Positions 1 through 38,823 of a stretch of 64,000 nt of DNA are shown here, piece by piece. The translations under genes were made by a program, and so were the position numbers. The DNA lies in NCBI GenBank assembly GCA_029168955.1, contig JAPDOI010000289.1, forward strand, positions 1 through 64,000, in the 5' to 3' direction. Position 1 is the stretch's first letter; every line of letters starts with the position of its first letter. The notes beneath the pieces were generated by a model that was given only the letters and a program-made list of their open reading frames with translations, was not told the DNA's origin and ran no database searches. Origin of the DNA: Aplectana chamaeleonis. Lineage: Eukaryota > Nematoda > Chromadorea > Rhabditida > Cosmocercidae.

Positions 1-2
1 TC

Positions 3-18
3 CTGATGACGTCATCAG
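3..18. promoter_or_regulatory. First of ~800+ CRE-like palindromes (ATF/CREB-type bZIP site), one per array A unit
   Basis: CTGATGACGTCATCAG is a perfect 16-bp palindrome with TGACGTCA at 7-14. TGACGTCA is the consensus cAMP-response element bound by CREB/ATF-family and many fungal and plant bZIP dimers, and the outer TGA/TCA bases extend the symmetry. The site recurs every 42 bp through array A. By eye roughly nine units in ten keep the core, and it is lost mainly in GTAATC, GCCATC and GCAATC variants. Similarity to a binding site is seen directly; occupancy in the cell is inference. It could be a chance feature of a satellite, or a protein-binding box that helped the repeat spread. GACGTC is also an AatII site, so digestion should give a 42-bp ladder. 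Confidence 0.7.
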
Positions 19-25
19 ATGCCCT

Positions 26-38
26 ATGTACTTTACAT
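26..38. repeat. Second dyad of array A unit: ATGTA/TACAT with CTT loop (first copy)
   Basis: ATGTACTTTACAT has a perfect 5-bp stem and a 3-nt centre and recurs once per unit. Its centre lies 21.5 bp from the centre of the CRE palindrome, about half a unit or two helical turns away. The frequent variant ATGTACCTTACAT changes only the loop and leaves the stem intact. The linked variant TTTAGATG breaks one stem pair. It is too short to be a terminator or RNA gene by itself. Confidence 0.6.
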
Positions 39-177
39 GACATCCTGATGACGTCATCAGATGCCCTATGTACTTTACATGACATCCTGATGACGTCATC
101 AGATGCCCTATGTACTTTACATGACATCCTGATGACGTCATCAGATGCCCTATGTACTTTACATGACATCCTGATGA

Positions 178-310
178 CGTCACCAGATGCCCTATGTACT
201 TTACATGACATCCTGATGACGTCATCAGATGCCCTATGTACCTTACATGACATCCTGATGACGTCATCAGATGCCTTATGTACCTTATATGACATCTTGA
301 TGACGTCATC
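178..310 (+). repeat. Partial copy of the recurring variant cassette (array A)
   Basis: Three successive units carry GTCACCAG, then ACCTTACATGACATCC, then a unit with ACCTTATATGACATCTTG. The same order occurs at 2,101-2,270, and the GTCACCAG then ACCTTACATGACATC order recurs inside the fuller cassettes near 1.6, 6.3, 24.9 and 35.4 kb. This indicates copying of multi-unit blocks rather than independent mutation. Confidence 0.65.
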
Positions 311-1635
311 AGATGCCCTATGTACTTTACATGACATCCTGATGACGTCATCAGATGCCCTATGTACTTTACATGACATCCTGATGACGTCATCAGATGC
401 CCTATGTACTCTAGATGACACCCTGATGACGTAATCAGATGCCCTATGTACTTTACATGACATCCTGATGACGTCATCAGATGCCCTATGTACTTTACAT
501 GACATCCTGATGACGTCATCAGATGCCCTATGTACTCTAGATGACACCCTGATGACGTAATCAGATGCCCTATGTACTTTACATGACATCCTGATGACGT
601 CATCAGATGCCCTATGTACTTTACATGACATCCTGATGACGTCATCAGATGCCCTATGTACTTTACATGACATCCTGATGACGTCATCAGATGCCCTATG
701 TACTTTACATGACACCATGATGACGTCATCAGATGCCCTATGTACTTTACATGACACCCTGATGACGTCATCAGATGCCCTATGTACTTTACATGACATC
801 CTGATGACGTCATCAGATGCCCTATGTACTTTACATGACATCCTGATGACGTCATCAGATGCCCTATGTACTTTACATGACATCCTGATGACGTCATCAG
901 ATGCCCTATGTACTTTACATGACATCCTGATGACGTCATCAGATGCCCTATGTACTCTAGATGACACCCTGATGACGTAATCAGATGCCCTATGTACTTT
1001 ACATGACATCCTGATGACGTCATCAGATGCCCTATGTACTTTACATGACATCCTGATGACGTCATCAGATGCCCTATGTACTTTACATGACATCCTGATG
1101 ACGTCATCAGATGCCCTATGTACTTTACATGACACCCTGATGACGTCATCAGATGCCCTATGTACCTTACATGACATCTTGATGACGTCATCAGATGCCC
1201 TATGTACTTTAGATGACACCCTGATGACGTAATCAGATGCCCTATGTACTTTACATGACATCCTGATGACGTCATCAGATGCCCTATGTACTTTACATGA
1301 CATCCTGATGACGTCATCAGATGCCCTATGTACTTTACATGACATCCTGATGACGTCATCAGATGCCCTATGTACTCTAGATGACACCCTGATGACGTAA
1401 TCAGATGCCCTATGTACTTTACATGACATCCTGATGACGTCATCAGATGCCCTATGTACTTTACATGACATCCTGATGACGTCATCAGATGCCCTATGTA
1501 CTCTAGATGACACCCTGATGACGTAATCAGATGCCCTATGTACTTTACATGACATCCTGATGACGTCATCAGATGCCCTATGTACTTTACATGACATCCT
1601 GATGACGTCATCAGATGCCCTATGTACTTTACATG

Positions 1636-1904
1636 ACACCATGATGACGCCATCAGATGCCCTATGTACTTTAGATGACACCCTGATGACGCAATCAGAT
1701 GCCCTATGTACTTTACATGACATCCTGATGACGTCACCAGATGCCCTATGTACTTTACATGACATCCTGATGACGTCATCAGATGCCCTATGTACCTTAC
1801 ATGACATCCTGATGACGTCATCAGATGCCCTATGTACCTTACATGACATCTTGATGACGTCATCAGATGCCCTATGTACTTTAGATGACACCCTGATGAC
1901 GTAA
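1636..1904 (+). repeat. Variant cassette copy 1 (about 270 bp, array A)
   Basis: An ordered run of marked units: CACCATGATGACGCCATC; then TTTAGATGACACCC with GACGCAATC; then GTCACCAG; then ACCTTACATGACATCC; then ACCTTACATGACATCTTG; then TTTAGATGACACCC ending in GACGTAATC. The same order of rare markers recurs far away at 6,276-6,544, almost identically at 4,848-5,116 and 35,377-35,645, and partly at 24,924-25,150. Shared rare variants in the same order are the signature of segmental copying within the array. Confidence 0.85.
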
Positions 1905-2037
1905 TCAGATGCCCTATGTACTTTACATGACATCCTGATGACGTCATCAGATGCCCTATGTACTTTACATGACATCCTGATGACGTCATCAGATGCCCTA
2001 TGTACTCTAGATGACACCCTGATGACGTAATCAGATG

Positions 2038-2041
2038 CCCC
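2038..2041 (+). other. One-base insertion breaking the 42-bp register
   Basis: GATGCCCCTATG has four C's where every neighbouring unit has three. Unit starts shift from phase 6 to phase 7 (mod 42) here. It is the first of only three net length changes seen in array A. Confidence 0.9.
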
Positions 2042-2769
2042 TATGTACTTTACATGACATCCTGATGACGTCATCAGATGCCCTATGTACTTTACATGAC
2101 ACCCTGATGACGCAATCAGATGCCCTATGTACTTTACATGACATCCTGATGACGTCACCAGATGCCCTATGTACTTTACATGACATCCTGATGACGTCAT
2201 CAGATGCCCTATGTACCTTACATGACATCCTGATGACGTCATCAGATGCCCTATGTACCTTATATGACATCTTGATGACGTCATCAGATGCCCTATGTAC
2301 CTTACATGACATTTTGATGACGTCATCAGATGCCCTATGTACTTTGGATGACATCCTGATGACGTCATCAGATGCCCTATGTACTTTACATGAAATCCTG
2401 ATGACGTCATCAGATGCCCTATGTACTTTATATGACATCCTGCTGACGTCATCAGATGCCCTATGTACTTTACATGACATCCTGATGACGTCATCAGATG
2501 CCCTATGTACTTTACATGGCATCCTGATGACGTCATCAGATGCCCTATGTACCTTACATGACATCCTGATGACGTCATCAGATGCCCTATGTACCTTACA
2601 TGACATCTTGATGACGTCATCAGATGCCCTATGTACTTTAGATGACACCCTGATGACGTAATCAGATGCCCTATGTACTCTAGATGACACCCTGATGACG
2701 TAATCAGATGCCCTATGTACTTTACATGACATCCTGATGACGTCATCAGATGCCCTATGTACTCTAGAT

Positions 2770-2790
2770 GACACCCTGTACCTTACATGA
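2770..2790 (+). other. 23-bp internal deletion in one unit of array A
   Basis: The text runs ACACCCTGTACCTTACATG, joining the end of one unit directly to the GTACC segment of the next. The CRE palindrome and GATGCCCTAT are missing. Comparison with the consensus gives a 23-bp loss, leaving a 19-bp stub; the exact breakpoint is ambiguous by one or two bases. Phase moves from 7 to 26 (mod 42). Confidence 0.9.
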
Positions 2791-4847
2791 CATCTTGATG
2801 ACGTCATCAGATGCCCTATGTACTTTACATGACATCCTGATGACGTCATCAGATGCCCTATGTACTTTACATGACATCCTGATGACGTCATCAGATGCCC
2901 TATGTACTTTACATGACACCCTGATGACGTCATCAGATGCCCTATGTACTTTACATGACATCCTGATGACGTCATCAGATGCCCTATGTACTCTAGATGA
3001 CACCCTGATGACGTAATCAGATGCCCTATGTACTTTACATGACATCCTGATGACGTCATCAGATGCCCTATGTACTTTACATGACATCCTGATGACGTCA
3101 TCAGATGCCCTATGTACTTTACATGACATCCTGATGACGTCATCAGATGCCCTATGTACTTTACATGACATCCTGATGACGTAATCAGATGCCCTATGTA
3201 CTTTACATGACATCCTGATGACGTCATCAGATGCCCTATGTACTTTACATGACATCCTGATGACGTCATCAGATGCCCTATGTACTCTAGATGACACCCT
3301 GATGACGTAATCAGATGCCCTATGTACTTTACATGACATCCTGATGACGTCATCAGATGCCCTATGTACTTTACATGACGTCCTGATGACGTCATCAGAT
3401 GCCCTATGTACTTTACATGACACCCTGATGACGTCATCAGATGCCCTATGTACTTTACATGACATCCTGATGACGTCATCAGATGCCCTATGTACTTTAC
3501 ATGACATCCTGATGACGTCATCAGATGCCCTATGTACTTTACATGACATCCTGATGACGTCATCAGATGCCCTATGTACTTTACATGACATCCTGATGAC
3601 GTCATCAGATGCCCTATGTACTTTACATGACATCCTGATGACGTCATCAGATGCCCTATGTACTTTAGATGACACCCTGATGACGTCATCAGATGCCCTA
3701 TGTACTTTACATGACATCCTGATGACGTCATCAGATGCCCTATGTACTTTACATGACATCCTGATGACGTCATCAGATGCCCTATGTACTCTAGATGACA
3801 TCCTGATGACGTCATCAGATGCCCTATGTACTTTACATGACATCCTGATGACGTCATCAGATGCCCTATGTACTTTACATGACACCCTGATGACGTCATC
3901 AGATGCCCTATGTACTTTACATGACATCCTGATGACGTCATCAGATGCCCTATGTACTTTACATGACATCCTGATGACGTCATCAGATGCCCTATGTACT
4001 TTACATGACACCCTGATGACGTCATCAGATGCCCTATGTACTTTACATGACATCCTGATGACGTCATCAGATGCCCTATGTACTTTACATGACATCCTGA
4101 TGACGTCATCAGATGCCCTATGTACTTTACATGACATCCTGATGACGTCATCAGATGCCCTATGTACTTTACATGACATCCTGATGACGTCATCAGATGC
4201 CCTATGTACTTTACATGACATCCTGATGACGTCATCAGATGCCCTATGTACTTTACATGACATCCTGATGACGTCATCAGATGCCCTATGTACTTTACAT
4301 GACATCCTGATGACGTCATCAGATGCCCTATGTACTTTACATGACATCCTGATGACGTCATCAGATGCCCTATGTACCTTAGATGACATCCTGATGACGT
4401 CATCAGATGCCCTATGTACTTTAGATGACACCCTGATGACGTCATCAGATGCCCTATGTACTTTACATGACATCCTGATGACGTCATCAGATGCCCTATG
4501 TACTTTACATGACATCCTGATGACGTCATCAGATGCCCTATGTACTTTACATGACATCCTGATGACGTCATCAGATGCCCTATGTACTTTAGATGACATC
4601 CTGATGACGTCATCAGATGCCCTATGTACTTTACATGACATCCTGATGACGTCATCAGATGCCCTATGTACTTTACATGACATCCTGATGACGTCATCAG
4701 ATGCCCTATGTACTCTAGATGACACCCTGATGACGTAATCAGATGCCCTATGTACTTTACATGACATCCTGATGACGTCATCAGATGCCCTATGTACTTT
4801 ACATGACATCCTGATGACGTCATCAGATGCCCTATGTACTTTACATG

Positions 4848-5116
4848 ACACCATGATGACGCCATCAGATGCCCTATGTACTTTAGATGACACCCTGATG
4901 ACGCAATCAGATGCCCTATGTACTTTACATGACATCCTGATGACGTCACCAGATGCCCTATGTACTTTACATGACATCCTGATGACGTCATCAGATGCCC
5001 TATGTACTTTACATGACATCCTGATGACGTCATCAGATGCCCTATGTACTTTACATGACATCCTGATGACGTCATCAGATGCCCTATGTACTTTAGATGA
5101 CACCCTGATGACGTAA
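4848..5116 (+). repeat. Variant cassette copy 2 (array A)
   Basis: It carries the GACGCCATC, GACGCAATC, GTCACCAG and terminal GTAATCAG markers in the same order as copy 1. Here the two ACCTTACAT units read ACTTTACAT, so those markers were lost or had not yet arisen. Displacement from copy 1 is 3,212 bp, which equals 77 units less the net 22 bp removed by the indels near 2,040 and 2,779. Confidence 0.8.
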
Positions 5117-6275
5117 TCAGATGCCCTATGTACTTTACATGACATCCTGATGACGTCATCAGATGCCCTATGTACTTTACATGACATCCTGATGACGTCA
5201 TCAGATGCCCTATGTACTCTAGATGACATCCTGATGACGTAATCAGATGCCCTATGTACTTTACATGACATCCTGATGACGTCATCAGATGCCCTATGTA
5301 CTTTACATGACACCCTGATGACGTCATCAGATGCCCTATGTACTTTACATGACATCCTGATGACGTCATCAGATGCCCTATGTACTTTACATGACATCCT
5401 GATGACGTCATCAGATGCCCTATGTACTTTACATGACATCCTGATGACGTCATCAGATGCCCTATGTACTTTACATGACATCCTGATGACGTCATCAGAT
5501 GCCCTATGTACCTTACATGACATCCTGATGACGTCATCAGATGCCCTATGTACTTTACATGACATCCTGATGACGTCATCAGATGCCCTATGTACTTTAC
5601 ATGACATCCTGATGACGTCATCAGATGCCCTATGTACTTTACATGACATCCTGATGACGTCATCAGATGCCCTATGTACTTTACATGACATCCTGATGAC
5701 GTCATCAGATGCCCTATGTACTTTACATGACATCCTGATGACGTCATCAGATGCCCTATGTACTTTACATGACATCCTGATGACGTCATCAGATGCCCTA
5801 TGTACCTTACATGACATCCTGATGACGTCATCAGATGCCCTATGTACTTTACATGACATCCTGATGACGTCATCAGATGCCCTATGTACTTTAGATGACA
5901 CCCTGATGACGTAATCAGATGCCCTATGTACTTTACATGACATCCTGATGACGTCATCAGATGCCCTATGTACTTTACATGACACCCTGATGACGTCATC
6001 AGATGCCCTATGTACTCTAGATGACAACCTGATGACGTCATCAGATGCCCTATGTACTTTACATGACATCCTGATGACGTCATCAGATGCCCTATGTACT
6101 TTACATGACATCCTGATGACGTCATCAGATGCCCTATGTACTCTGGATGACACCCTGATGACGTCATCAGATGCCCTATGTACTTTACATGACATCCTGA
6201 TGACGTCATCAGATGCCCTATGTACTTTACATGACATCCTGATGACGTCATCAGATGCCCTATGTACTTTACATG

Positions 6276-6544
6276 ACACCATGATGACGCCATCAGATGC
6301 CCTATGTACTTTAGATGACACCCTGATGACGCAATCAGATGCCCTATGTACTTTACATGACATCCTGATGACGTCACCAGATGCCCTATGTACTTTACAT
6401 GACATCCTGATGACGTCATCAGATGCCCTATGTACCTTACATGACATCCTGATGACGTCATCAGATGCCCTATGTACCTTACATGACATCTTGATGACGT
6501 CATCAGATGCCCTATGTACTTTAGATGACACCCTGATGACGTAA
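6276..6544 (+). repeat. Variant cassette copy 3 (array A)
   Basis: It matches copy 1 in all of the marker variants, including both ACCTTACAT units and CATCTTG. It lies exactly 1,428 bp (34 units) downstream of copy 2. Confidence 0.85.
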
Positions 6545-9500
6545 TCAGATGCCCTATGTACTTTACATGACATCCTGATGACGTCATCAGATGCCCTATG
6601 TACTTTACATGACATCCTGATGACGTCATCAGATGCCCTATGTACTCTAGATGACACCCTGATGACGTAATCAGATGCCCTATGTACTTTACATGACATC
6701 CTGATGACGTCATCAGATGCCCTATGTACTTTACATGACACCCTGATGACGTCATCAGATGCCCTATGTACTTTACATGACATCCTGATGACGTCATCAG
6801 ATGCCCTATGTACTTTACATGACATCCTGATGACGTCATCAGATGCCCTATGTACTTTACATGACATCCTGATGACGTCATCAGATGCCCTATGTACTTT
6901 AGATGACATCCTGATGACGTCATCAGATGCCCTATGTACTTTACATGACATCCTGATGACGTCATCAGATGCCCTATGTACTTTAGATGACATCCTGATG
7001 ACGTCATCAGATGCCCTATGTACTTTACATGACATCCTGATGACGTCATCAGATGCCCTATGTACTTTACATGACATCCTGATGACGTCATCAGATGCCC
7101 TATGTACTTTACATGACATCCTGATGACGTCATCAGATGCCCTATGTACTTTACATGACATCCTGATGACGTCATCAGATGCCCTATGTACTTTCCATGA
7201 CATCCTGATGACGTCATCAGATGCCCTATGTACTTTACATGACATCCTGATGACGTCATCAGATGCCCTATGTACTTTACATGACATCCTGATGACGTCA
7301 TCAGATGCCCTATGTACTTTAGATGACATCCTGATGACGTAATCAGATGCCCTATGTACTTTACATGACATCCTGATGACGTCATCAGATGCCCTATGTA
7401 CTTTACATGACATCCTGATGACGTCATCAGATGCCCTATGTACTTTACATGACATCCTGATGACGTCATCAGATGCCCTATGTACTTTACATGACATCCT
7501 GATGACGTCATCAGATGCCCTATGTACTTTACATGACATCCTGATGACGTCATCAGATGCCCTATGTACTTTAGATGACACCCTGATGACGTAATCAGAT
7601 GCCCTATGTACTTTACATGACATCCTGATGACGTCATCAGATGCCCTATGTACTTTACATGACATCCTGATGACGTCATCAGATGCCCTATGTACTTTAC
7701 ATGACACCCTGATGACGTCATCAGATGCCCTATGTACTTTAGATGACACCCTGATGACGTCATCAGATGCCCTATGTACTTTACATGACATCCTGATGAC
7801 GTCATCAGATGCCCTATGTACTTTACATGACATCCTGATGACGTCATCAGATGCCCTATGTACCTTACATGACATCCTGATGACGTCATCAGATGCCCTA
7901 TGTACCTTACATGACATCTTGATGACGTCATCAGATGCCCTATGTACTTTAGATGACACCCTGATGACGTAATCAGATGCCCTATGTACTTTACATGACA
8001 TCCTGATGACGTCATCAGATGCCCTATGTACTTTACATGACATCCTGATGACGTCATCAGATGCCCTATGTACTTTACATGACATCCTGATGACGTCATC
8101 AGATGCCCTATGTACTTTACATGACATCCTGATGACGTCATCAGATGCCCTATGTACTTTAGATGACACCCTGATGACGTAATCAGATGCCCTATGTACT
8201 TTACATGACATCCTGATGACGTCATCAGATGCCCTATGTACTTTACATGACATCCTGATGACGTCATCAGATGCCCTATGTACTTTACATGACATCCTGA
8301 TGACGTCATCAGATGCCCTATGTACTTTACATGACATCCTGATGACGTCATCAGATGCCCTATGTACTTTACATGACATCCTGATGACGTCATCAGATGC
8401 CCTATGTACCTTACATGACATCCTGATGACGTCATCAGATGCCCTATGTACTTTACATGACACCCTGATGACGTCATCAGATGCCCTATGTACTTTACAT
8501 GACATCCTGATGACGTCATCAGATGCCCTATGTACTTTACATGACATCCTGATGACGTCATCAGATGCCCTATGTACTTTACATGACATCCTGATGACGT
8601 CATCAGATGCCCTATGTACTTTACATGACATCCTGATGACGTCATCAGATGCCCTATGTACTTTACATGACATCCTGATGACGTCATCAGATGCCCTATG
8701 TACTCTAGATGACACCCTGATGACGTAATCAGATGCCCTATGTACTTTACATGACATCCTGATGACGTCATCAGATGCCCTATGTACTTTACATGACATC
8801 CTGATGACGTCATCAGATGCCCTATGTACTCTAGATGACACCCTGATGACGTAATCAGATGCCCTATGTACTTTACATGACATCCTGATGACGTCATCAG
8901 ATGCCCTATGTACTTTACATGACATCCTGATGACGTCATCAGATGCCCTATGTACTTTACATGACATCCTGATGACGTCATCAGATGCCCTATGTACCTT
9001 ACATGACATCCTGATGACGTCATCAGATGCCCTATGTACTTTACATGACATCCTGATGACGTCATCAGATGCCCTATGTACTTTACATGACATCCTGATG
9101 ACGTCATCAGATGCCCTATGTACTTTACATGACATCCTGATGACGTCATCAGATGCCCTATGTACTTTACATGACATCCTGATGACGTCATCAGATGCCC
9201 TATGTACTTTACATGACATCCTGATGACCTCATCAGATGCCCTATGTACTTTACATGACATCCTGATGACGTCATCAGATGCCCTATGTACTTTACATGA
9301 CATCCTGATGACGTCATCAGATGCCCTATGTACTTTACATGACATCCTGATGACGTCATCAGATGCCCTATGTACTTTACATGACATCCTGATGACGTCA
9401 TCAGATGCCCTATGTACTTTACATGACATCCTGATGACGTCATCAGATGCCCTATGTACTTTACATGACATCCTGATGACGTCATCAGATGCCCTATGTA

Positions 9501-9714
9501 CTTTACATGACATCCTGATGACGTCATCAGATGCCCTATGTACTTTACATGACATCCTGATGACGTCATCAGATGCCCTATGTACTTTACATGACATCCT
9601 GATGACGTCATCAGATGCCCTATGTACTTTACATGACATCCTGATGACGTCATCAGATGCCCTATGTACTTTAGATGACATCCTGATGACGTCATCAGAT
9701 GCCCTATGTACTTT

Positions 9715-9840
9715 ACATGGCATCCTGATGGAGTCATCAGATGCCCTATGTACTTTACATGACATCCTGATGACGTCATCAGATGCCCTATGTCCTTTAC
9801 ATGACATCCTGGTGAGGTCATCAGATGCCCTGTGTACTTT
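9715..9840 (+). repeat. Small island of degenerate array A units
   Basis: Within three units there are ACATGGCATCC, GATGGAGTCATC, TATGTCCTTTAC, TGGTGAGGTCATC and GCCCTGTGTAC, against near-consensus neighbours on both sides. Two of the changes destroy the TGACGTCA core. Confidence 0.85.
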
Positions 9841-12800
9841 ACATGACATCCTGATGACGTCATCAGATGCCCTATGTACTTTACATGACATCCTGATGAC
9901 GTCATCAGATGCCCTATGTACTTTACATGACATCCTGATGACGTCATCAGATGCCCTATGTACTTTACATGACATCCTGATGACGTCATCAGATGCCCTA
10001 TGTACTTTACATGACATCCTGATGACGTCATCAGATGCCCTATGTACTTTACATGACATCCTGATGACGTCATCAGATGCCCTATGTACTTTACATGACA
10101 TCCTGATGACGTCATCAGATGCCCTATGTACTTTACATGACATCCTGATGACGTCATCAGATGCCCTATGTACTTTACATGACATCCTGATGACGTCATC
10201 AGATGCCCTATGTACTTTACATGACATCCTGATGACGTCATCAGATGCCCTATGTACTTTAAATGACACCCTGACGACGTAATCAGATGCCCTATGTACT
10301 TTAGATGACACCCTGATGACGTAATCAGATGCCCTATGTACTTTAGATGACACCCTGATGACGTCATCAGATGCTCTATGTACTTTACATGACATCCTGA
10401 TGACGTCATCAGATGCCCTATGTACTTTACATGACACCCTGATGACGTCATCAGATGCCCTATGTACTTTACATGACATCCTGATGACGTCATCAGATGC
10501 CCTATGTACTTTACATGACATCCTGATGACGTCATCAGATGCCCTATGTACTTTTCATGACATCCTGATGACGTCATCAGATGCCCTATGTACCTTACAT
10601 GACATCCTGATGACGTCATCAGATGCCCTATGTACTTTACATGACATCCTGATGACGTCATCAGATGCCCTATGTACTTTACATGACATCCTGATGACGT
10701 CATCAGATGCCCTATGTACTTTACATGACATCCTGATGACGTCATCAGATGCCCTATGTACTTTACATGACATCCTGATGACGTCATCAGATGCCCTATG
10801 TACTTTACATGACATCCTGATGACGTCATCAGATGCCCTATGTACTTTACATGACATCCTGATGACGTCATCAGATGCCCTATGTACTTTACATGACATC
10901 CTGATGACGTCATCAGATGCCCTATGTACTTTACATGACATCCTGATGACGTCATCAGATGCCCTATGTACTTTACATGACATCCTGATGACGTCATCAG
11001 ATGCCCTATGTACTTTACATGACATCCTGATGACGTCATCAGATGCCCTATGTACTTTAGATGACATCCTGATGACGTCATCAGATGCCCTATGTACTTT
11101 ACATGACATCCTGATGACGTCATCAGATGCCCTATGTACTTTACATGACATCCTGATGACGTCATCAGATGCCCTATGTACTTTACATGACATCCTGATG
11201 ACGTCATCAGATGCCCTATGTACTTTAGATGACATCCTGATGACGTCATCAGATGCCCTATGTACTTTACATGACATCCTGATGACGTCATCAGATGCCC
11301 TATGTACTTTACATGACATCCTGATGACGTCATCAGATGCCCTATGTACTTTACATGACACCCTGATGACGTCATCAGATGCCCTATGTACTTTACATGA
11401 CATCCTGATGACGTCATCAGATGCCCTATGTACTTTACATGACATCCTGATGACGTCATCAGATGCCCTATGTACTTTACATGACATCCTGATGACGTCA
11501 TCAGATGCCCTATGTACTTTACATGACATCCTGATGACGTCATCAGATGCCCTATGTACTTTACATGACATCCTGATGACGTCATCAGATGCCCTATGTA
11601 CTTTACATGACATCCTGATGACGTCATCAGATGCCCTATGTACTTTACATGACATCCTGATGACGTCATCAGATGCCCTATGTACTTTACATGACATCCT
11701 GATGACGTCATCAGATGCCCTATGTACTTTACATGACATCCTGATGACGTCATCAGATGCCCTATGTACCTTACATGACATCCTGATGACGTCATCAGAT
11801 GCCCTATGTACTTTACATGACATCCTGATGACGTCATCAGATGCCCTATGTACTTTACATGACATCCTGATGACGTCATCAGATGCCCTATGTACTTTAC
11901 ATGACATCCTGATGACGTCATCAGATGCCCTATGTACTTTACATGACATCCTGATGACGTCATCAGATGCCCTATGTACTTTACATGACATCCTGATGAC
12001 GTCATCAGATGCCCTATGTACTTTACATGACACACTGATGACGTCATCAGATGCCCTATGTACTTTACATGACATCCTGATGACGTCATCAGATGCCCTA
12101 TGTACTTTACATGACATCCTGATGACGTCATCAGATGCCCTATGTACTTTTCATGACATCCTGATGACGTCATCAGATGCCCTATGTACTTTACATGACA
12201 TCCTGATGACGTCATCAGATGCCCTATGTACTTTACATGACATCCTGATGACGTCATCAGATGCCCTATGTACTTTACATGACATCCTGATGACGTCATC
12301 AGATGCCCTATGTACTTTACATGACATCCTGATGACGTCATCAGATGCCCTATGTACTTTACATGACATCCTGATGACGTCATCAGATGCCCTATGTACT
12401 TTACATTACATCCTGATGACGTCATCAAATGCCCTATGTACTTTACATGACATCCTGATGACGTCATCAGATGCCCTATGTACTTTAGATGACACCCTGA
12501 TGACGTCATCAGATGCCCTATGTACTTTACATGACATCCTGATGACGTCATCAGATGCCCTATGTACTTTACATGACATCCTGATGACGTCATCAGATGC
12601 CCTATGTACTTTACATGACATCCTGATGACGTCATCAGATGCCCTATGTACTTTACATGACATCCTGATGACGTCATCAGATGCCCTATGTACTTTACAT
12701 GACATCCTGATGACGTCATCAGATGCCCTATGTACTTTACATGACATCCTGATGACGTCATCAGATGCCCTATGTACTTTACATGACATCCTGATGACGT

Positions 12801-12979
12801 CATCAGATGCCCTATGTACTTTACATGACATCCTGATGACGTCATCAGATGCCCTATGTACTTTACATGACATCCTGATGACGTCATCACATGCCCTATG
12901 TACTTTACATGACATCCTGATGACGTCATCAGATGCCCTATGTACTTTACATGACATCCTGATGACGTCATCAGATGCC

Positions 12980-16440: not shown

Positions 16441-16499
16441 CATCCTGATTACGTCTGCAAATGTCCTATGTTCTTTAGATGTCACCCTGATGACGTAAT
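16441..16499 (+). repeat. Most diverged single monomer inside array A
   Basis: The unit reads CTGATTACGTCTGCAAATG, then TCCTATGTTCTTTAG, then ATGTCACCCTGATG. It has about eight substitutions but keeps its 42-bp length. Units on both sides are near consensus. Confidence 0.85.
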
Positions 16500-25150: not shown

Positions 25151-28100
25151 TCAGATGCCCTATGTACTTTACATGACATCCTGATGACGTCATCAGATGC
25201 CCTATGTACTTTACATGACATCCTGATGACGTCATCAGATGCCCTATGTACTTTACATGACACCATGATGACGTCATCAGATGCCCTATGTACTTTACAT
25301 GACATCCTGATGACGTCATCAGATGCACTATGTACTTTAGATGACACCCTGATGACGTAATCAGATGCCCTATGTACTTTACATGACATCCTGATGACGT
25401 CATCAGATGCCCTATGTACTTTACATGACATCCTGATGACGTCATCAGATGCCCTATGTACTTTACATGACATCCTGATGACGTCATCAGATGCCCTATG
25501 TACTTTACATGACATCCTGATGACGTCATCAGATGCCCTATGTACTTTACATGACATCCTGATGACGTCATCAGATGCCCTATGTACTTTACATGACATC
25601 CTGATGACGTCATCAGATGCCCTATGTACTTTAGATGACACCCTGATGACGTAATCAGATGCCCTATGTACTTTAGATGACACCCTGATGACGTCATCAG
25701 ATGCCCTATGTACTTTACATGACATCCTGATGACGTCATCAGATGTCTTATGTACTTTACATGACATCCTGATGACGTCATCAGATGCCCTATGTACTTT
25801 AGATGACACCCTGATGACGTAATCAGATGCCCTATGTACTTTACATGACATCCTGATGACGTCATCAGATGCCCTATGTAGTTTACATGACATCCTGATG
25901 ACGTCATCAGATGCCCTATGTACTTTACATGACATCCTGATGACGTCATCAGATGCCCTATGTACTTTACATGACACCCTGATGACGTCATCAGATGCCC
26001 TATGTACTTTACATGACATCCTGATGACGTCATCAGATGCCCTATGTACTTTACATGACATCCTGATGACGTCATCAGATGCCCTATGTACTTTACATGA
26101 CATCCTGATGACGTCATCAGATGCCCTATGTACTTTACATGACATCCTGATGACGTCATCAGATGCCCTATGTACTTTACCTGACATCCTGATGACGTCA
26201 TCAGATGCCCTATCTACTTTAAATGACACCCTGATGACGTAATCAGATGCCCTGTGTACTTTACCTGACATCCTGATGACGTCATCTGATGCTCTATGTA
26301 CTTTACATGACATCCTGATGACGTCATCAGATGCCTTATGTACTTTAGATGACACCCTGATGACGTCATCAGATGCCCTATGTACTTTACATGACATCCT
26401 GATGACGTCATCAGATGCCCTATGTACTTTACATGACATCCTGATGACGTCATCAGATGCCCTATGTACTTTAGATGACACCCTGATGACGTAATCAGAT
26501 GCCCTATGTACTTTACATGACATCCTGATGACGTCATCAGATGCCCTATGTACTTTACATGACATCCTGATGACGTCATCAGATGCCCTATGTACTTTAG
26601 ATGACACCCTGATGACGTAATCAGATGCCCTATGTACTTTACATGACATCCTGATGACGTCATCAGATGCCCTATGTACTTTACATGACATCCTGATGAC
26701 GTCATCAGATGCCCTATGTACTTTACATGACATCCTGATGACGTCATCAGATGCCCTATGTACTTTACATGACATCCTGATGACGTCATCAGATGCCCTA
26801 TGTACTTTACATGACATCCTGATGACGTCATCAGATGCCCTATGTACTTTACATGACATCCTGATGACGTCATCAGATGCCCTATGTACTCTAGATGACA
26901 CCCTGATGACGTAATCAGATGCCCTATGTACTTTACATGACATCCTGATGACGTCATCAGATGCCCTATGTACTTTACATGACATCCTGATGACGTCATC
27001 AGATGCCCTATGTACTCTAGATGACACCCTGATGACGTAATCAGATGCCCTATGTACTTTACATGACATCCTGATGACGTCATCAGATGCCCTATGTACT
27101 TTACATGACATCCTGATGACGTCATCAGATGCCCTATGTACTTTAGATGACACCCTGATGACGTAATCAGATGCCCTATGTACTTTAGATGACACCCTGA
27201 TGACGTCATCAGATGCCCTATGTACTTTACATGACATCCTGATGACGTCATCAGATGCCCTATGTACTTTACATGACATCCTGATGACGTCATCAGATGC
27301 CCTATGTACTTTACATGACATCCTGATGACGTCATCAGATGCCCTATGTACTTTACATGACATCCTGATGACGTCATCAGATGCCCTATGTACTTTACAT
27401 GACATCCTGATGACGTCATCAGATGCCCTATGTACTTTAGATGACACCCTGATGACGTAATCAGATGCCCTATGTACTTTACATGACATCCTGATGACGT
27501 CATCAGATGCCCTATGTACTTTACATGACATCCTGATGACGTCATCAGATGCCCTATGTACTTTACATGACATCCTGATGACGTCATCAGATGCCCTATG
27601 TACTTTACATGACATCCTGATGACGTCATCAGATGCCCAATGTACTTTACATGACATCCTGATGACGTCATCAGATGCCCTATGTACTTTACATGACATC
27701 CTGATGACGTCATCAGATGCCCTATGTACTTTACATGACATCCTGATGACGTCATCAGATGCCCTATGTACTTTACATGACACCCTGATGACGTCATCAG
27801 ATGCCCTATGTACTTTAGATGACATCCTGATGACGTCATCAGATGCCCTATGTACTTTACATGACATCCTGATGACGTCATCAGATGCCCTATGTACTTT
27901 ACATGACATCCTGATGACGTCATCAGATGCCCTATGTACTTTAGATGACACCCTGATGACGTAATCAGATGCCCTATGTACTTTACATGACACCCTGATG
28001 ACGTCATCAGATGCCCTATGTACTTTACATGACATCCTGATGACGTCATCAGATGCCCTATGTACTTTACATGACATCCTGATGACGTCATCAGATGCCC

Positions 28101-31100
28101 TATGTACTTTACATGACATCCTGATGACGTCATCAGATGCCCTATGTACTTTACATGACATCCTGATGACGTCATCAGATGCCCTATGTACTTTACATGA
28201 CATCTTGATGACGTCATCAGATGCCCTATGTACTTTAGATGACACCCTGATGACGTCATCAGATGCCCTATGTACTTTACATGACATCCTGATGACGTCA
28301 TCAGATGCCCTATGTACTTTACATGACACCCTGATGACGTCATCAGATGCCCTATGTACTTTACATGACACCCTGATGACGTCATCAGATGCCCTATGTA
28401 CTTTAGATGACACCCTGATGACGTCATCAGATGCCCTATGTACTTTACATGACATCCTGATGACGTCATCAGATGCCCTATGTACTTTACATGACATCCT
28501 GATGACGTCATCAGATGCCCTATGTACTTTACATGACATCCTGATGACGTCATCAGATGCCCTATGTACTTTACATGACATCCTGATGACGTCATCAGAT
28601 GCCCTATGTACTTTACATGACACCCTGATGACGTCATCAGATGCCCTATGTACTTTACATGACACCCTGATGACGTCATCAGATGCCCTATGTACTTTAG
28701 ATGACATCCTGATGACGTCATCAGATGCCCTATGTACTTTACATGACATCCTGATGACGTCATCAGATGCCCTATGTACTTTAGATGACATCCTGATGAC
28801 GTCATCAGATGCCCTATGTACTTTACATGACATCCTGATGACGTCATCAGATGCCCTATGTACTTTACATGACATCCTGATGACGTCATCAGATGCCCTA
28901 TGTACTTTACATGACACCCTGATGACGTCATCAGATGCCCTATGTACTTTACATGACATCCTGATGACGTCATCAGATGCCCTATGTACTTTACATGACA
29001 TCCTGATGACGTCATCAGATGCCCTATGTACTTTAGATGACACCCTGATGACGTCATCAGATGCCCAATGTACTTTACATGACATCCTGATGACGTCATC
29101 AGATGCCCTATGTACTTTACATGACATCCTGATGACGTCATCAGATGCCCTATGTACTTTACATGACACCCTGATGACGTCATCAGATGCCCTATGTACT
29201 TTAGATGACATCCTGATGACGTCATCAGATGCCCTATGTACTTTACATGACATCCTGATGACGTCATCAGATGCCCTATGTACTTTACATGACATCCTGA
29301 TGACGTCATCAGATGCCCTATGTACTTTAGATGACACCCTGATGACGTAATCAGATGCCCTATGTACTTTACATGACATCCTGATGACGTCATCAGATGC
29401 CCTATGTACTTTACATGACACCCTGATGACGTCATCAGATGCCCTATGTACTTTACATGACATCCTGATGACGTCATCAGATGCCCTATGTACTTTACAT
29501 GACATCCTGATGACGTCATCAGATGCCCTATGTACTTTACATGACATCCTGATGACGTCATCAGATGCCCTATGTACTTTACATGACATCCTGATGACGT
29601 CATCAGATGCCCTATGTACTTTACATGACATCCTGATGACGTCATCAGATGCCCTATGTACTTTACATGACATCCTGATGACGTCATCAGATGCCCTATG
29701 TACTTTACATGACATCCTGATGACGTCATCAGATGCCCTATGTACTTTACATGACATCCTGATGACGTCATCAGATGCCCTATGTACTTTAGATGACATC
29801 CTGATGACGTCATCAGATGCCCTATGTACTTTACATGACATCCTGATGACGTCATCAGATGCCCTATGTACTTTACATGACATCCTGATGACGTCATCAG
29901 ATGCCCTATGTACTTTACATGACATCCTGATGACGTCATCAGATGCCCTATGTACTTTACATGACATCCTGATGACGTCATCAGATGCCCTATGTACTTT
30001 ACATGACATCCTGATGACGTCATCAGATGCCCTATGTACTTTACATGACATCCTGATGACGTCATCAGATGCCCTATGTACTTTACATGACATCCTGATG
30101 ACGTCATCAGATGCCCTATGTACTTTACATGACATCCTGATGACGTCATCAGATGCCCTATGTACTTTACATGACATCCTGATGACGTCATCAGATGCCC
30201 TATGTACTTTACATGACATCCTGATGACGTCATCAGATGCCCTATGTACTTTACATGACATCCTGATGACGTCATCAGATGCCCTATGTACTTTACATGA
30301 CATCCTGATGACGTCATCAGATGCCCTATGTACTTTAGATGACACCCTGATGACGTCATCAGATGCCCTATGTACTTTACATGACATCCTGATGACGTCA
30401 TCAGATGCCCTATGTACTTTACATGACATCCTGATGACGTCATCAGATGCCCTATGTACTTTACATGACATCCTGATGACGTCATCAGATGCCCTATGTA
30501 CTTTACATGACATCCTGATGACGTCATCAGATGCCCTATGTACTTTACATGACATCCTGATGACGTCATCAGATGCCCTATGTACTTTACATGACATCCT
30601 GATGACGTCATCAGATGCCCTATGTACTTTACATGACATCCTGATGACGTCATCAGATGCCCTATGTACTTTACATGACATCCTGTTGACGTCATCAGAT
30701 GCCCTATGTACTCTACATGACATCCTGATGACGTCATCAGATGCCCTATGTACTTTATATGACACCCTGATGACGTCATCAGATGCCCTATGTACTTTAG
30801 ATGACACCCTGATGACGTCATCAGATGCCCTATGTACTTTACATGACATCCTGATGACGTCATCAGATGCCCTATGTACTTTACATGACATCCTGATGAC
30901 GTCATCAGATGCCCTATGTACTTTACATGACATCCTGATGACGTCATCAGATGCCCTATGTACTTTACATGACACCCTGATGACGTCATCAGATGCCCTA
31001 TGTACTTTACATGACATCCTGATGACGTCATCAGATGCCCTATGTACTTTACATGACATCCTGATGACGTCATCAGATGCCCTATGTACTTTACATGACA

Positions 31101-31385
31101 TCCTGATGACGTCATCAGATGCCCTATGTACTTTACATGACATCCTGATGACGTCATCAGATGCCCTATGTACTTTACATGACACCCTGATGACGTCATC
31201 AGATGCCCTATGTACTTTACATGACATCCTGATGACGTCATCAGATGCCCTATGTACTTTACATGACATCCTGATGACGTCATCAGATGCCCTATGTACT
31301 TTACATGACATCCTGATGACGTCATCAGATGCCCTATGTACTTTAGATGACATCCTGATGACGTCATCAGATGCCCTATGTACTT

Positions 31386-31990
31386 TCCATTACATGCTGA
31401 TGACGTCACCAGATGCCCTATGTACTTTCCATGACATGCTGATGACGTCATCAGATGCCCTATTTACATGACATGCTGTTAACGTCATCAGATGCCCTAT
31501 GTACTTCACATGACATGCTGATGACGTCATCAGATGCCCTATGTACTTTACATGACATCCTGATGACGTCATCAGATGCCCTATGTACTTTAGATGACAT
31601 CCTGATGACGTCATCAGATGCCCTATGTACTTTACATGACATCCTGATGACGTCATCAGATGCCCTATGTACTTTACATGACATCCTGATGACGTCATCA
31701 GATGCCCTATGTACTTTACATGACATCCTGATGACGTCATCATATGCCCAATGTACTTTACATGACATCCTGATGACGTCATCAGATGCCGTATGTACTT
31801 CACATGGCATCCTGATGACGTCATCAGATGCCCTATGTACTTCACATGACACCCTGATGACGTCATCAGATGCCCTATGTACTTTACATGACATCCTGAT
31901 AACGTCATAACATGCCCTATGTACTTTACATGACATCCTGATGACGTCGTCAGATGTCCTATGTACTTTTCATGACATCCTGATGACGTC
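31386..31990 (+). repeat. Degenerate sub-block of array A with private CATGCTG variant and 5-bp deletion
   Basis: Four consecutive junctions read CATGCTG rather than CATCCTG, which looks like a local amplification of a private variant. Other changes include TTTCCATTACATG, GCCCTATTTACATG (5 bp lost near 31,463, shifting phase from 26 to 21), GTTAACGTC, CATATGCCCAATG, TTCACATGGCATCC, CATAACATGCCC and GTCGTCAGATGTCC. Units beyond about 32,000 return to near consensus. This may be an old array edge now buried inside the array. Confidence 0.85.
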
Positions 31991-34900
31991 ATCAGATGCC
32001 CTATGTACTCTTCATGACATCCTGATGACGTCATCAGATGCCCTATGTACTTTACATGACATCCTGATGACGTCATCAGATGCCCTATGTACTTTACATG
32101 ACATCCTGATGACGTCATCAGATGCCCTATGTACTTTAGATGACACCCTGATGACGTCATCAGATGCCCTATGTACTTTACATGACATCCTGATGACGTC
32201 ATCAGATGCCCTATGTACTTTACATGACATCCTGATGACGTCATCAGATGCCCTATGTACTTTACATGACATCCTGATGACGTCATCAGATGCCCTATGT
32301 ACTTTACATGACATCCTGATGACGTCATCAGATGCCCTATGTACTTTACATGACATCCTGATGACGTCATCAGATGCCCTATGTACTTTACATGACATCC
32401 TGATGACGTCATCAGATGCCCTATGTACTTTACATGACATCCTGATGACGTCATCAGATGCCCTATGTACTTTACATGACATCCTGATGACGTCATCAGA
32501 TGCCCTATGTACTTTACATGACATCCTGATGACGTCATCAGATGCCCTATGTACTTTACATGACACCCTGATGACGTCATCAGATGCCCTATGTACTTTA
32601 CATGACATCCTGATGACGTCATCAGATGCCCTATGTACTTTACATGACATCCTGATGACGTCATCAGATGCCCTATGTACTTTACATGACACCCTGATGA
32701 CGTCATCAGATGCCCTATGTACTTTACATGACATCCTGATGACGTCATCAGATGCCCTATGTACTTTACATGACATCCTGATGACGTCATCAGATGCCCT
32801 ATGTACTTTAGATGACATCCTGATGACGTCATCAGATGCCCTATGTACTTTACATGACATCCTGATGACGTCATCAGATGCCCTATGTACTTTACATGAC
32901 ATCCTGATGACGTCATCAGATGCCCTATGTACTTTACATGACATCCTGATGACGTCATCAGATGCCCTATGTACTTTACATGACATCCTGATGACGTCAT
33001 CAGATGCCCTATGTACTTTACATGACATCCTGATGACGTCATCAGATGCCCTATGTACTTTACATGACATCCTGATGACGTCATCAGATGCCCTATGTAC
33101 TTTAGATGACACCCTGATGACGTAATCAGATGCCCTATGTACTTTACATGACATCCTGATGACGTCATCAGATGCCCTATGTACTTTACATGACATCCTG
33201 ATGACGTCATCAGATGCCCTATGTACTTTAGATGACACCCTGATGACGTCATCAGATGCCCTATGTACTTTACATGACATCCTGATGACGTCATCAGATG
33301 CCCTATGTACTTTACATGACATCCTGATGACGTCATCAGATGCCCTATGTACTTTAGATGACACCCTGATGACGTAATCAGATGCCCTATGTACTTTACA
33401 TGACATCCTGATGACGTCATCAGATGCCCTATGTACTTTACATGACATCCTGATGACGTCATCAGATGCCCTATGTACTTTACATGACATCCTGATGACG
33501 TCATCAGATGCCCTATGTACTTTACATGACATCCTGATGACGTCATCAGATGCCCTATGTACTTTACATGACATCCTGATGACGTCATCAGATGCCCTAT
33601 GTACTTTACATGACATCCTGATGACGTCATCAGATGCCCTATGTACTTTAGATGACACCCTGATGACGTAATCAGATGCCCTATGTACTTTACATGACAT
33701 CCTGATGACGTCATCAGATGCCCTATGTACTTTACATGACATCCTGATGACGTCATCAGATGCCCTATGTACTTTACATGACATCCTGATGACGTCATCA
33801 GATGCCCTATGTACTTTACATGACATCCTGATGACGTCATCAGATGCCCTATGTACTTTACATGACACCCTGATGACGTCATCAGATGCCCTATGTACTT
33901 TACATGACATCCTGATGACGTCATCAGATGCCCTATGTACTTTACATGACATCCTGATGATGTCATCAGATGCCCTATGTACTTTACATGACACCCTGAT
34001 GACGTCATCAGATGCCCTATGTACTTTAGATGACACCCTGATGACGTCATCAGATGCCCTATGTACTTTACATGACATCCTGATGACGTCATCAGATGCC
34101 CTATGTACTTTACATGACATCCTGATGACGTCATCAGATGCCCTATGTACTTTAGATGACACCCTGATGACGTAATCAGATGCCCTATGTACTTTACATG
34201 ACATCCTGATGACGTCATCAGATGCCCTATGTACTTTACATGACATCCTGATGACGTCATCAGATGCCCTATGTACTTTAGATGACATCCTGATGACGTC
34301 ATCAGATGCCCTATGTACTTTACATGACATCCTGATGACGTCATCAGATGCCCTATGTACTTTACATGACATCCTGATGACGTCATCAGATGCCCTATGT
34401 ACTTTACATGACACCCTGATGACGTCATCAGATGCCCTATGTACTTTACATGACATCCTGATGACGTCATCAGATGCCCTATGTACTTTACATGACATCC
34501 TGATGACGTCATCAGATGCCCTATGTACTTTACATGACATCCTGATGACGTCATCAGATGCCCTATGTACCTTACATGACATCCTGATGACGTCATCAGA
34601 TGCCCTATGTACTTTACATGACATCCTGATGACGTCATCAGATGCCCTATGTACTTTACATGACATCCTGATGACGTCATCAGATGCCCTATGTACTTTA
34701 CATGACACCCTGATGACGTCATCAGATGCCCTATGTACTTTACATGACATCCTGATGACGTCATCAGATGCCCTATGTACTTTAGATGACACCCTGATGA
34801 CGTAATCAGATGCCCTATGTACTTTACATGACATCCTGATGACGTCATCAGATGCCCTATGTACTTTACATGACATCCTGATGACGTCATCAGATGCCCT

Positions 34901-35376
34901 ATGTACTTTACATGACATCCTGATGACGTCATCAGATGCCCTATGTACTTTACATGACATCCTGATGACGTCATCAGATGCCCTATGTACTTTACATGAC
35001 ATCCTGATGACGTCATCAGATGCCCTATGTACTCTAGATGACATCCTGATGACGTCATCAGATGCCCTATGTACTTTACATGACATCCTGATGACGTCAT
35101 CAGATGCCCTATGTACTCTAGATGACACCCTGATGACGTAATCAGATGCCCTATGTACTTTACATGACATCCTGATGACGTCATCAGATGCCCTATGTAC
35201 TTTACATGACATCCTGATGACGTCATCAGATGCCCTATGTACTTTAGATGACACCCTGATGACGTAATCAGATGCCCTATGTACTTTACATGACATCCTG
35301 ATGACGTCATCAGATGCCCTATGTACTTTACATGACATCCTGATGACGTCATCAGATGCCCTATGTACTTTACATG

Positions 35377-35645
35377 ACACCATGATGACGCCATCAGATG
35401 CCCTATGTACTTTAGATGACACCCTGATGACGTCATCAGATGCCCTATGTACTTTACATGACATCCTGATGACGTCACCAGATGCCCTATGTACTTTACA
35501 TGACATCCTGATGACGTCATCAGATGCCCTATGTACCTTACATGACATCCTGATGACGTCATCAGATGCCCTATGTACCTTACATGACATCTTGATGACG
35601 TCATCAGATGCCCTATGTACTTTAGATGACACCCTGATGACGTAA
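35377..35645 (+). repeat. Variant cassette copy 5 (array A)
   Basis: It has the same ordered markers as copies 1 and 3 some 29-34 kb away. The one difference is that the second unit reads GACGTCATC where the others have GACGCAATC. This may be a conversion back to consensus or the state before that mutation. Confidence 0.8.
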
Positions 35646-36360
35646 TCAGATGCCCTATGTACTTTACATGACATCCTGATGACGTCATCAGATGCCCTAT
35701 GTACTTTACATGACATCCTGATGACGTCATCAGATGCCCTATGTACTCTAGATGACACCCTGATGACGTAATCAGATGCCCTATGTACTTTACATGACAT
35801 CCTGATGACGTCATCAGATGCCCTATGTACTTTACATGACATCCTGATGACGTCATCAGATGCCCTAAGTACTTCAGATGACATCCTGATGACGTCATCA
35901 GCTGCCCTATGTACTTTACATGACATCCTGATGATGTCATCAGATGCCCTATGTGCTTTACATGACATCCTGATGACGTCATCAGATGCCCTATGTACTT
36001 TAGATGACACCCTGATGACGTCATCAGATGCCCTATGTACTTTACATGACATCCTGATGACGTCATCAGATGCCCTATGTACTTTACATGACATCCTGAT
36101 GACGTCATCAGCTGCCCTATGTACTTTACATGACATCCTGATGACGTCATCAGATGCCCTATGTACTTTACATGACATCCTGATGACGTCATCAGATGCC
36201 CTATGTACTTTACATGACATCCTGATGACGTCATCAGATGCCCTATGTACTTTACATGACATCCTGATGACGTCATCAGATGCCCTATGTACTTTAAATG
36301 ACATCCTGATGACGTCATCAGATGCCCTATGTACTTTAGATGACACCCTGATGACGTAAT

Positions 36361-36425
36361 CAGATGGGCTATATTCTTTAGATAACAAACTGATGACGTC
36401 ATCAGATGCCCTATGTACTTAAGAT
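36361..36425 (+). repeat. Degenerate array A monomer
   Basis: One unit reads CAGATGGGCTATATTCTTTA followed by GATAACAAACTGATG, with about eight substitutions and no length change. It is flanked by TTTAGATGACACCC-type units, and the next unit ends ACTTAAGATG. Confidence 0.85.
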
Positions 36426-37899
36426 GACACCCTGATGACGTCATCAGATGCCCTATGTACTTTAGATGACACCCTGATGACGTCATCAGATGCCCTATGT
36501 ACTTTACATGACATCCTGATGACGTCATCAGATGCCCTATGTACTTTACATGACATCCTGATGACGTCATCAGATGCCCTATGTACTTTAGATGACACCC
36601 TGATGACGTAATCAGATGCCCTATGTACTTTAGATGACATCCTGATGACGTCATCAGATGCCCTATGTACTTTACATGACATCCTGATGACGTCATCAGA
36701 TGCCCTATGTACTTTACATGACATCCTGATGACGTCATCAGATGCCCTATGTACCTTACATGACATCCTGATGACGTCATCAGATGCCCTATGTACTTTA
36801 CATGACATCCTGATGACGTCATCAGATGCCCTATGTACTTTAAATGACATCCTGATGACGTCATCAGATGCCCTATGTACTTTACATGACATCCTGATGA
36901 CGTCATCAGATGCCCTATGTACTTTACATGACATCCTGATGACGTCATCAGATGCCCTATGTACTTTACATGACACCCTGATGACGTCATCAGATGCCCT
37001 ATGTACCTTACATGACATCCTGATGACGTCATCAGATGCCCTATGTACCTTACATGACATCCTGATGACGTCATCAGATGCCCTATGTACTTTACATGAC
37101 ACCCTGATGACGTCATCAGATGCCCTATGTACTTTACATGACATCCTGATGACGTCATCAGATGCCCTATGTACTTTAGATGACACCCTGATGACGTCAT
37201 CAGATGCCCTATGTACTTTACATGACACCATGATGACGTCATCAGATGCCGTATGTACTTTAGATGACACCCTGATGACGTCATCAGATGCCCTATGTAC
37301 TTTAGATGACACCCTGATGACGTAATCAGATGCCCTATGTACTTTACATGACATCCTGATGACGTCATCAGATGCCCTATGTACTTTACATGACATCCTG
37401 ATGACGTCATCAGATGCCCTATGTACTCTAGATGACACCCTGATGACGTAATCAGATGCCCTATGTACTTTACATGACATCCTGATGACGTCATCAGATG
37501 CCCTATGTACTTTACATGACATCCTGATGACGTCATCAGATGCCCTATGTACCTTACATGACATCTTGATGACGTCATCAGATGCCCTATGTACTTTACA
37601 TGACACCATGATGACGTCATCAGATGCCCTATGTACTTTAGATGACATCCTGATGACGTCATCAGATGCCCTATGTACCTTACATGACATCCTGATGACG
37701 TCATCAGATGCCCTATGTACTTTACATGACATCCTGATGACGTCATCAGATGCCCTATGTACTCTAGATGACACCCTGATGACGTAATCAGATGCCCTAT
37801 GTACCTTACATGACATCCTGATGACGTCATCAGATGCCCTATGTACCTTACATGACATCTTGATGACGTCATCAGATGCCCTATGTACTTTAGATGACA

Positions 37900-38799
37900 C
37901 CCTGATGACGTAATCAGATGCCCTATGTACTTTACATGACATCCTGATGACGTCATCAGATGCCCTATGTACTTTACATGACATCCTGATGACGTCATCA
38001 GATGCCCTATGTACCTTACATGACATCCTGATGACGTCACCTAATGCCCTATGTACCTTACATGACATCCTGATGACGTCATCAGATGCCCTATGTACTC
38101 TAGATGACACCCTGATGACGTAATCAGATGCCCTATGTACTTTACATGACATCCTGATGACGTCATCAGATGCCCTATGCACTTTACATGACATCCTGAT
38201 GACGTCATCAGATGCCCTATGTACCTTACATGACATCTTGATGACGTCATCAGATGCCCTATGTACTTTACATGACACCATGATGACGTCATCAGATGCC
38301 CTATGTACTTTAGATGACATCCTGATGACGTCATCAGATGCCCTATGTGCCTTATATGACATCTTGATGACGTCATCAGATGCCCTATGTACTTTACACG
38401 ATATCCTGATGACGTCATCAGATGCCCTATGTACTCTAGATGACACCCCGATGACGTAATCAGATGCCCTATGTACCTTACATGACATCCTGATGACGTC
38501 ACCTAATGCCCTATGTACCTTACATGACATCTTGATGACGTCATCAGATGCCCTATGTACTTTACATGACACCATGATGACGTCATCAGATGCCCTATGT
38601 ACTTTAGATGACACCCTGATGACGTCATCTGGTGCCCTATGTACTTTAGATGACACCCTGATGACGTCATCAGATGCCCTATGTACCTTACATGACATCT
38701 TGATGACGTCATCAGATGCCCTATGCTTTTTACATGACACCATGATGACGTCATCAGGTGCCCTATGTACTTTAGATGACACCCTCTAGACGTCATCAG
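37900..38799 (+). repeat. Diverging right edge of array A
   Basis: Variants become denser toward the junction: CACCTAATGCCC (twice, near 38,037 and 38,499), GATATCCTG, ACACCCCG, TATGCAC, TATGTGCCTTATATG, TCTGGTGCCC, CAGGTGCCC, TATGCTTTTTAC and many CATCTTG and CACCATG units. Higher divergence at array ends is the usual pattern when unequal exchange homogenises the interior more than the edges. The 42-bp register still holds (phase 21). Confidence 0.8.
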
Positions 38800-38812: not shown

Positions 38813-38823
38813 TGGAAGTGCAC

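Follow-up and report, generated by a model that had tools for sequence, protein, structure and literature searches.

Mobile elements that carry tandem repeats are a known kind of sequence, and the closest described system is Cg_HINE, a non-autonomous Helentron of the Pacific oyster. In this family, satellite-like central repeats lie between two conserved modules, the copies bear 11-12-bp subterminal inverted repeats, a terminal palindrome and a microsatellite, target duplication is absent, and some of the central repeats are related to classical satellite DNA (PMC7492417). The foldback transposon Tetris of Drosophila virilis likewise combines a foldback build with internal tandem repeats that also form satellite-like arrays; these repeats (~220 bp) are described as lying within its terminal inverted repeats (PMC4079207). 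Here we analyze a stretch of 64,000 nucleotides from the nematode Aplectana chamaeleonis (assembly GCA_029168955.1; contig JAPDOI010000289.1, positions 1 to 64,000 of the forward strand; hereafter the window) and the 42-bp satellite, array A, that fills its first 38.8 kb. Most units of array A contain a palindrome with the consensus core of the cAMP response element (CRE), the site of CREB/ATF-type basic leucine zipper (bZIP) proteins, and this CRE load is unusual for an element-borne repeat. Our results suggest that array A is probably the central tandem repeat, in expanded form, of a Helitron/Helentron-like element that is abundant and apparently non-autonomous.

The CENP-B box has a known binder, and we know of none for the CRE box of the A repeat. 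Satellites with the CENP-B box resemble array A in that a box looking like a protein site recurs along the satellite (PMC9070824). The chicken CNM (41 bp) and W-chromosome 21-bp satellites share with it a 21/41-bp period and dyad symmetry, but they differ in sequence, CNM is centromeric, and the available description notes no mobile-element module (PMC9974502). With the oyster and fly elements on the other side of the comparison, the repeat described here would be an apparent nematode case of element-borne central repeats (PMC7492417, PMC4079207).

The CRE-bearing repeat and its element

Array A occupies positions 1..38799 of the window (+ strand) and comprises 924 full units with the consensus TCCTGATGACGTCATCAGATGCCCTATGTACTTTACATGACA; these units fall into 109 distinct monomers, and 505 of them equal the plain consensus. 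The window covers the opening 64 kb of contig C1377 (923,241 bp), in an assembly of 1.04 Gb and 2,087 contigs. Since array A begins at the contig end, where its left end is lost, its real length is at least 38.8 kb. Tandem Repeats Finder delimited 42-bp arrays at 1-2778 and 2777-38799. A first-pass annotation of this DNA had described a CRE palindrome every 42 bp over 38.8 kb, with 800 or more cores, and our counts agree: the 16-bp palindrome CTGATGACGTCATCAG (first copy at 3..18) has 772 exact copies and the 8-bp core TGACGTCA (first copy at 7..14, final one at 38746-38753) has 817, all within 3-38753 and neither motif being assigned a strand. Successive cores are 42 bp apart in 720 of 816 cases, 84 bp apart in 82, 126 bp apart in 11 and irregularly spaced in 3. 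For conservation counts on array A, the 3 gapped monomers of 924 were left out (n = 921); the core was found in 815 of these units and the 16-bp palindrome in 770, confirming that the consensus palindrome is present in most of them.

We compared these counts with chance expectation, as the first-pass annotation had proposed. Across 100 dinucleotide shuffles of the window, the core occurred 2.6 times on average (maximum 8), versus 817 times in the real sequence. Because the A copies share descent from one unit, this comparison shows that the array exists, not that 817 sites originated independently. For a single A unit, base shuffling produced a perfect dyad with arms of at least 8 in 0.07% of 100,000 trials, and shuffling intended to preserve dinucleotides produced one in 19 of 20,000. 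The accompanying scan of the host genome returned 125,605 exact copies of the palindrome 16-mer and 0 copies of a control pattern. Extrapolated at the ratio of units to 16-mers seen in the window, the A repeat would represent roughly 6 Mb, or 0.6% of the assembly.

The element that carries this repeat has dispersed copies with precise ends, internal arrays of variable length and a common repeat start. On contig C1, ~6 A units near 700 kb and ~174 units at 2,636,178-2,643,486 are enclosed by the same two flanking modules (85.5% and 90% identical between the two copies), and their surroundings are otherwise different. A 129-bp arm beside the A array had 1,706 candidate places in the genome, and all 40 that were scored matched at 98-100%. 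We cut out 20 of these 40, a best-scoring and non-random set that includes the query's own locus; in all 20, the arm passes straight into the A repeat at the identical starting base. The 20-base right terminus of the element has 2,954 exact copies in the assembly. Arrays were sought within ~1.3-1.5 kb of this terminus in the first 20 loci listed and in 20 more taken in list order, and 42-bp arrays were found in 23 of the 40 (14 of the first 20 and 9 of the next 20), of type A in 10 and of a sister version, A', in 13. The remaining 17 present 145-bp repeats, other repeats or none within that distance. These 40 loci include the two known C1 copies, one place that appears twice (L070 and L071) and four loci with a shared flank (L056, L057, L065 and L083).

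Both ends were located in four copies, which measure 892, 2,112, 2,196 and 8,391 bp, and the copies seen contain from ~3 to ~174 A units. The layout in the copies examined is a foldback left module, the 129-bp arm, the A units, 145-bp repeats in some copies, and a right module composed of a 7-bp microsatellite, a 12-bp subterminal inverted repeat and a GC-rich terminal hairpin.

The left end starts with TC after A or T in all 17 ends that were located (17 of the 20 loci at the expected place). The right end reads AGCGA; the base after its terminal CGA is T at 14 of the 16 pattern-fitting loci (of 20) and, in a count by eye, at 18 of another 20 loci. The base flanking the element is A or T at 17/17 left ends and at 16/16 pattern-fitting right ends, and no target-site duplication was seen by eye in the four copies with both ends. 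The two ends are linked by the 12-bp subterminal inverted repeat (chance expectation 0.0013); AGAGGTTTGGTT is present at both ends of the single full copy compared, and additional loci contain this motif in one or both orientations. A terminal palindrome, CCAGCCGC-TTC-GCGGCTGG, is located in the right module ~5 bases before the element end. The genome also yielded 42 matches to the Helitron-like helicase domain PF14214, several of them in open frames of 1,000-3,351 amino acids (aa).

This architecture resembles that of Cg_HINE, from which the element differs in its nematode host, its 42-bp unit, the CRE palindrome in that unit, a microsatellite on the hairpin side and a subterminal complement ~0.5 kb off in a long inverted repeat (PMC7492417). 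The microsatellite of the C1 copy lies 33 bp from the array on the hairpin side, whereas the site in HINEs is the left module, and the complement of the left subterminal repeat sits inside a ~190-bp inverted repeat (L009, by eye). Compared with Tetris, the element has one foldback end and one short-hairpin end, with the repeats in between (PMC4079207).

We propose that rolling-circle-type transposition, by the proteins of an autonomous relative, would scatter the element copies, that unequal exchange or slippage would lengthen their arrays, and that very long arrays such as that of the window may escape from the element. The CRE palindrome, being present in the unit, would be copied along; the core would then be a passenger whose genome-wide number tracks the success of the element. 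Judging from the consensus, bZIP proteins are likely to bind the palindrome in vitro, but such binding probably did not build array A. The idea of a satellite organized around a protein-binding site was not supported; the unit instead appears to be an internal repeat carried by a mobile element, whose dispersed copies multiply the motif. A mobile element could in this way raise one transcription-factor consensus above 100,000 copies, and a motif-rich satellite can pass wrongly for a functional array.

Several further observations were made on the element copies. The 145-bp tandem repeat forms a second central repeat (L009 1528-2184), and the start of contig C1500 (L029 1-3000) resembles it by eye. 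A ~138-bp near-perfect palindrome, perhaps a separate small mobile element, was found inside one element copy (L009 2252-2388) and near B and C arrays (L019 8540-8623 and L022 7554-7640). At L070/L071 (~1500), two element termini are joined head to head at the terminal hairpin, beside decayed repeats with TGACGTCA.

Conservation of the palindrome and sister repeats

Inside arrays, conservation of the palindrome does not significantly exceed that of the remaining unit, and the expectation that its substitutions would be rarer than elsewhere did not hold. The median substitution rate across the 921 ungapped A units is 0.0043 both inside and outside the palindrome (Mann-Whitney P 0.86). The mean rate is 0.012 in the palindrome versus 0.022 outside, because positions 1 and 36 raise the latter; the positions varying in at least 3% of units are 1, 3, 13, 32, 33 and 36. 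The substitution rate of the palindrome window is mid-rank among the 42 rotations of the unit, and ranking by intact words places the core 8-mer at 22/42 and the 16-mer at 18/42. In the second array, on contig C1 (~174 units), the corresponding ranks are 11 and 25. The base pairs of the palindrome in array A show 178 one-sided changes and 0 compensatory ones. The commonest core-breaking change is C to A at position 13 (the GTAATC variant; 80 of 924 units), which by eye is often accompanied by changes in the neighbouring block, at its positions 36 and 1.

The same comparison was made for the first units of the 20 insertions: 4 of 160 core positions are changed, against 1 of 280 in the preceding 14 bases. 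Among the 15 loci whose first unit is standard, the counts are 2/120 in the core, 0/210 in the preceding 14 bases and 13/570 downstream. These counts indicate that the core is not protected there. As a look-elsewhere control, we searched array B, the other satellite of the window, and found 427 copies of GGAAGTG. We take this word to be an ETS motif; by the logic of a CRE satellite, array B would then be an ETS satellite.

Array B (38800..64000, + strand) is a GC-rich 42-bp repeat of 606 full units without TGACGTCA, and it continues to ~71,798 on the contig. It is more divergent and indel-rich (175/606 units gapped) and contains large internal duplications (lags of 3195, 1463 and 3388 bp). A relative of array B in this genome is satellite C, a 42-bp repeat with clear 21-bp halves identical at 14/21 positions, which is found ~9 kb past the C1 array (L021 2577-5926 and L021 9692 to L022 6431, that is, contig C1 ~2,652,576-2,666,430). 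Satellite C carries TGACGTCC, which is located in the other half-unit. Its two stretches enclose an open frame of 1,027 aa that by eye has the look of an RTE/LINE-type endonuclease-reverse transcriptase. The consensus of A is identical to that of C at 25/42 positions, and reversed B to C at 29/42, each above all 2,000 shuffles; the direct match of A to B (18/42) was equalled in 658 of 2,000 shuffles and is not significant. The A-C and B-C matches suggest that the three repeats form one superfamily. Three sister versions of A were also identified. A' matches A at 33-35/42 positions, and both A' and the degenerate first unit of the element retain TGACGTCA without the 16-bp dyad. A'' comes from one decayed locus with a 73-bp unit, of which it is a 41-base part picked for its likeness to A.

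Objections to an element origin and alternative explanations

A number of observations weigh against the derivation of array A from a Helitron/Helentron-like element. We found no arm, left, right or 145-bp module either in the window or across the 30 kb beyond it (L019, L024 and L025). Array A runs off the contig on the left and meets array B on the right, so that its descent from an element copy is deduced from the identical units. The shared flanks and repeated places among the right-end loci imply fewer independent insertions than loci. Canonical Helitrons end in CTRR after the hairpin, and CTRR is not present at the end of this element (AGCGA). The complement found 1-12 bp from the 5' subterminal repeat in HINEs is absent here, and by eye one occurs only ~0.5 kb inward. 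Because of this missing adjacent complement, the hairpin-side microsatellite and the lack of CTRR, we call the element HINE-like rather than assigning it to the HINEs; its class is given by resemblance. Other objections concern the palindrome. Genome-wide, its 16-mer is somewhat commoner (125,605) than the single comparison 16-mer (111,279). The core window ranks 4/42 in the 131 edge units of array A, against 33 in the 790 inner units. The two palindrome windows rank 4-9 in 492 units of the 20 insertions, the core at 6-9, without significance (Mann-Whitney P 0.59 and 0.74); cut or strongly divergent units were left out of this analysis, and averages were taken from 19 loci after one with fewer than 3 units was dropped. 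Finally, the comparison of A with A' and the first unit gave 0/16 differences in TGACGTCA (P 0.024).

The absence of element modules beside A and B in the window would be expected if the repeat had been a free satellite of pericentromeric or other heterochromatin, of which the element later captured a few units. The window array, with at least 924 units, is also far longer than the arrays inside element copies, and no arm, left or right module was found alongside the long B and C arrays. However, the repeat starts at the identical base in all 20 arm loci and the degenerate first unit is common to 15 of them, which indicates that the element already carried the repeat before these copies dispersed. 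The sister version A' is likewise element-borne. We consider this satellite-first origin unlikely.

We give slightly less credence still to the possibility that the CRE core has a working role in the element. A CREB/ATF-type bZIP protein would then bind the central repeat for transcription, replication or chromatin, and selection would keep the 8-bp core across the sister versions as the remaining positions drift; the more than 125,000 sites would constitute a maintained docking array, a genome-wide sponge that titrates or redirects bZIP proteins or that seeds silent chromatin. A sponge at 125,605 sites is arithmetically conceivable. In the locus consensus, the core is kept in 23/23 right-end loci with A or A' arrays. 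The 0/16 result for the first two sister versions points the same way and becomes 0/24 when A'' is added (P 0.003-0.004). In fission yeast, the bZIP protein Atf1 is described as having a part in heterochromatin at the mat locus (PMC9389250).

Nevertheless, the signal among sister repeats fades as more relatives enter the test: P is 0.38 when the other part of the A'' unit is included too, 0.17 for the first two versions plus C, 0.15 for these plus C and B, and 0.06 with C, B and A''. The sparing of TGACGTCA may thus be read as a weak hint that depends on the relatives counted (P 0.003 to 0.38). The sister versions also have some differences in common, array B lacks the core, and the full dyad is lost in A', A'' and the first unit. 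Within arrays there is no significant constraint, and new mutations hit the core. This genome provides a natural test case for the sponge idea, since the core-bearing A and A' share one nucleus with the core-less B and C.

A very improbable explanation is that the repeat owes its success to its dyads. A second dyad, ATGTACTTTACAT (first copy at 26..38, no strand; arms of 5, loop of 3), is centred about half a unit off the first, and two dyads so placed could aid hairpins that lead to slippage, rolling-circle copying or centromere-type chromatin. Two dyads with arms of at least 5 lie 20-21 bp apart in only 29 of 20,000 and 10 of 5,000 shuffles, and a fold of three units is far better than shuffles (z -8.7; z -2.2 for one unit). 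Short dyad-rich satellites are also described at some centromeres (PMC9070824, PMC9974502). This explanation is hard to reconcile with the common variants, which often break both dyads (position 13 in 80/924 units and position 36 in 163/924), with the one-sided and never compensatory changes, with the loss of the 16-bp dyad in A' and A'', and with the consensus of array B, which has no dyad with arms of at least 5.

Other features of the window and minor observations

Array A is interrupted at two places on the + strand: an irregular pair of units at 2732..2798 has lost bases and shifted the phase, and a unit with lost bases at 31437..31521 marks a second phase shift. The final truncated unit (38780..38799, +) ends in an abrupt A/B junction at the right edge of a damaged palindrome. 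We searched array A for a regular higher-order repeat, and the lag signals were barely above those of shuffles. Rfam models at gathering scores and a tRNA scan found nothing in the window.

Long open frames, of up to 4,794 aa, run through array A, and we take them for a side effect of the 42-bp period. Considered as a repeat-protein gene, array A was rejected: 140-aa pieces from two A frames and one B frame gave 0, 1 and 0 matches, respectively. The sole match to the A-frame pieces, P0004 (a 100-aa ENA protein), has a different 7-aa repeat and was not used. The match is weak, and its 7-aa (21-bp) repeats resemble the translation of A. Searches for loci related to P0004 and P0002 confirmed none.

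An exact 22-mer of the A unit has 0 copies in GTDB species genomes and IMG/VR, and 841 bases of array A gave no match to plasmids and phages. The palindrome 16-mer is present in 8 viral contigs, at one site apiece. In the literature searched, a sequence-string search returned no match for the A or B unit, a search for satellite DNA with TGACGTCA returned no CRE satellite (judged by title), one combining a 42-bp centromeric satellite with CREB returned nothing, wordings for a 42-bp satellite returned only unrelated papers (judged from the listing), and the wording for a bZIP decoy returned none.

A kinship of array A with the avian 41-bp repeat was also considered and set aside; the A/T-tract motif is absent by eye, and the host has SL1. 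SL1-like spliced-leader genes, which point to a nematode host, were found in three loci (L053-L055, near 1500) among the 50 scored of 256,011 candidates, with a best Rfam score of 50 (cut-off 75), and the leader in these three loci is presumably the exact nematode SL1.

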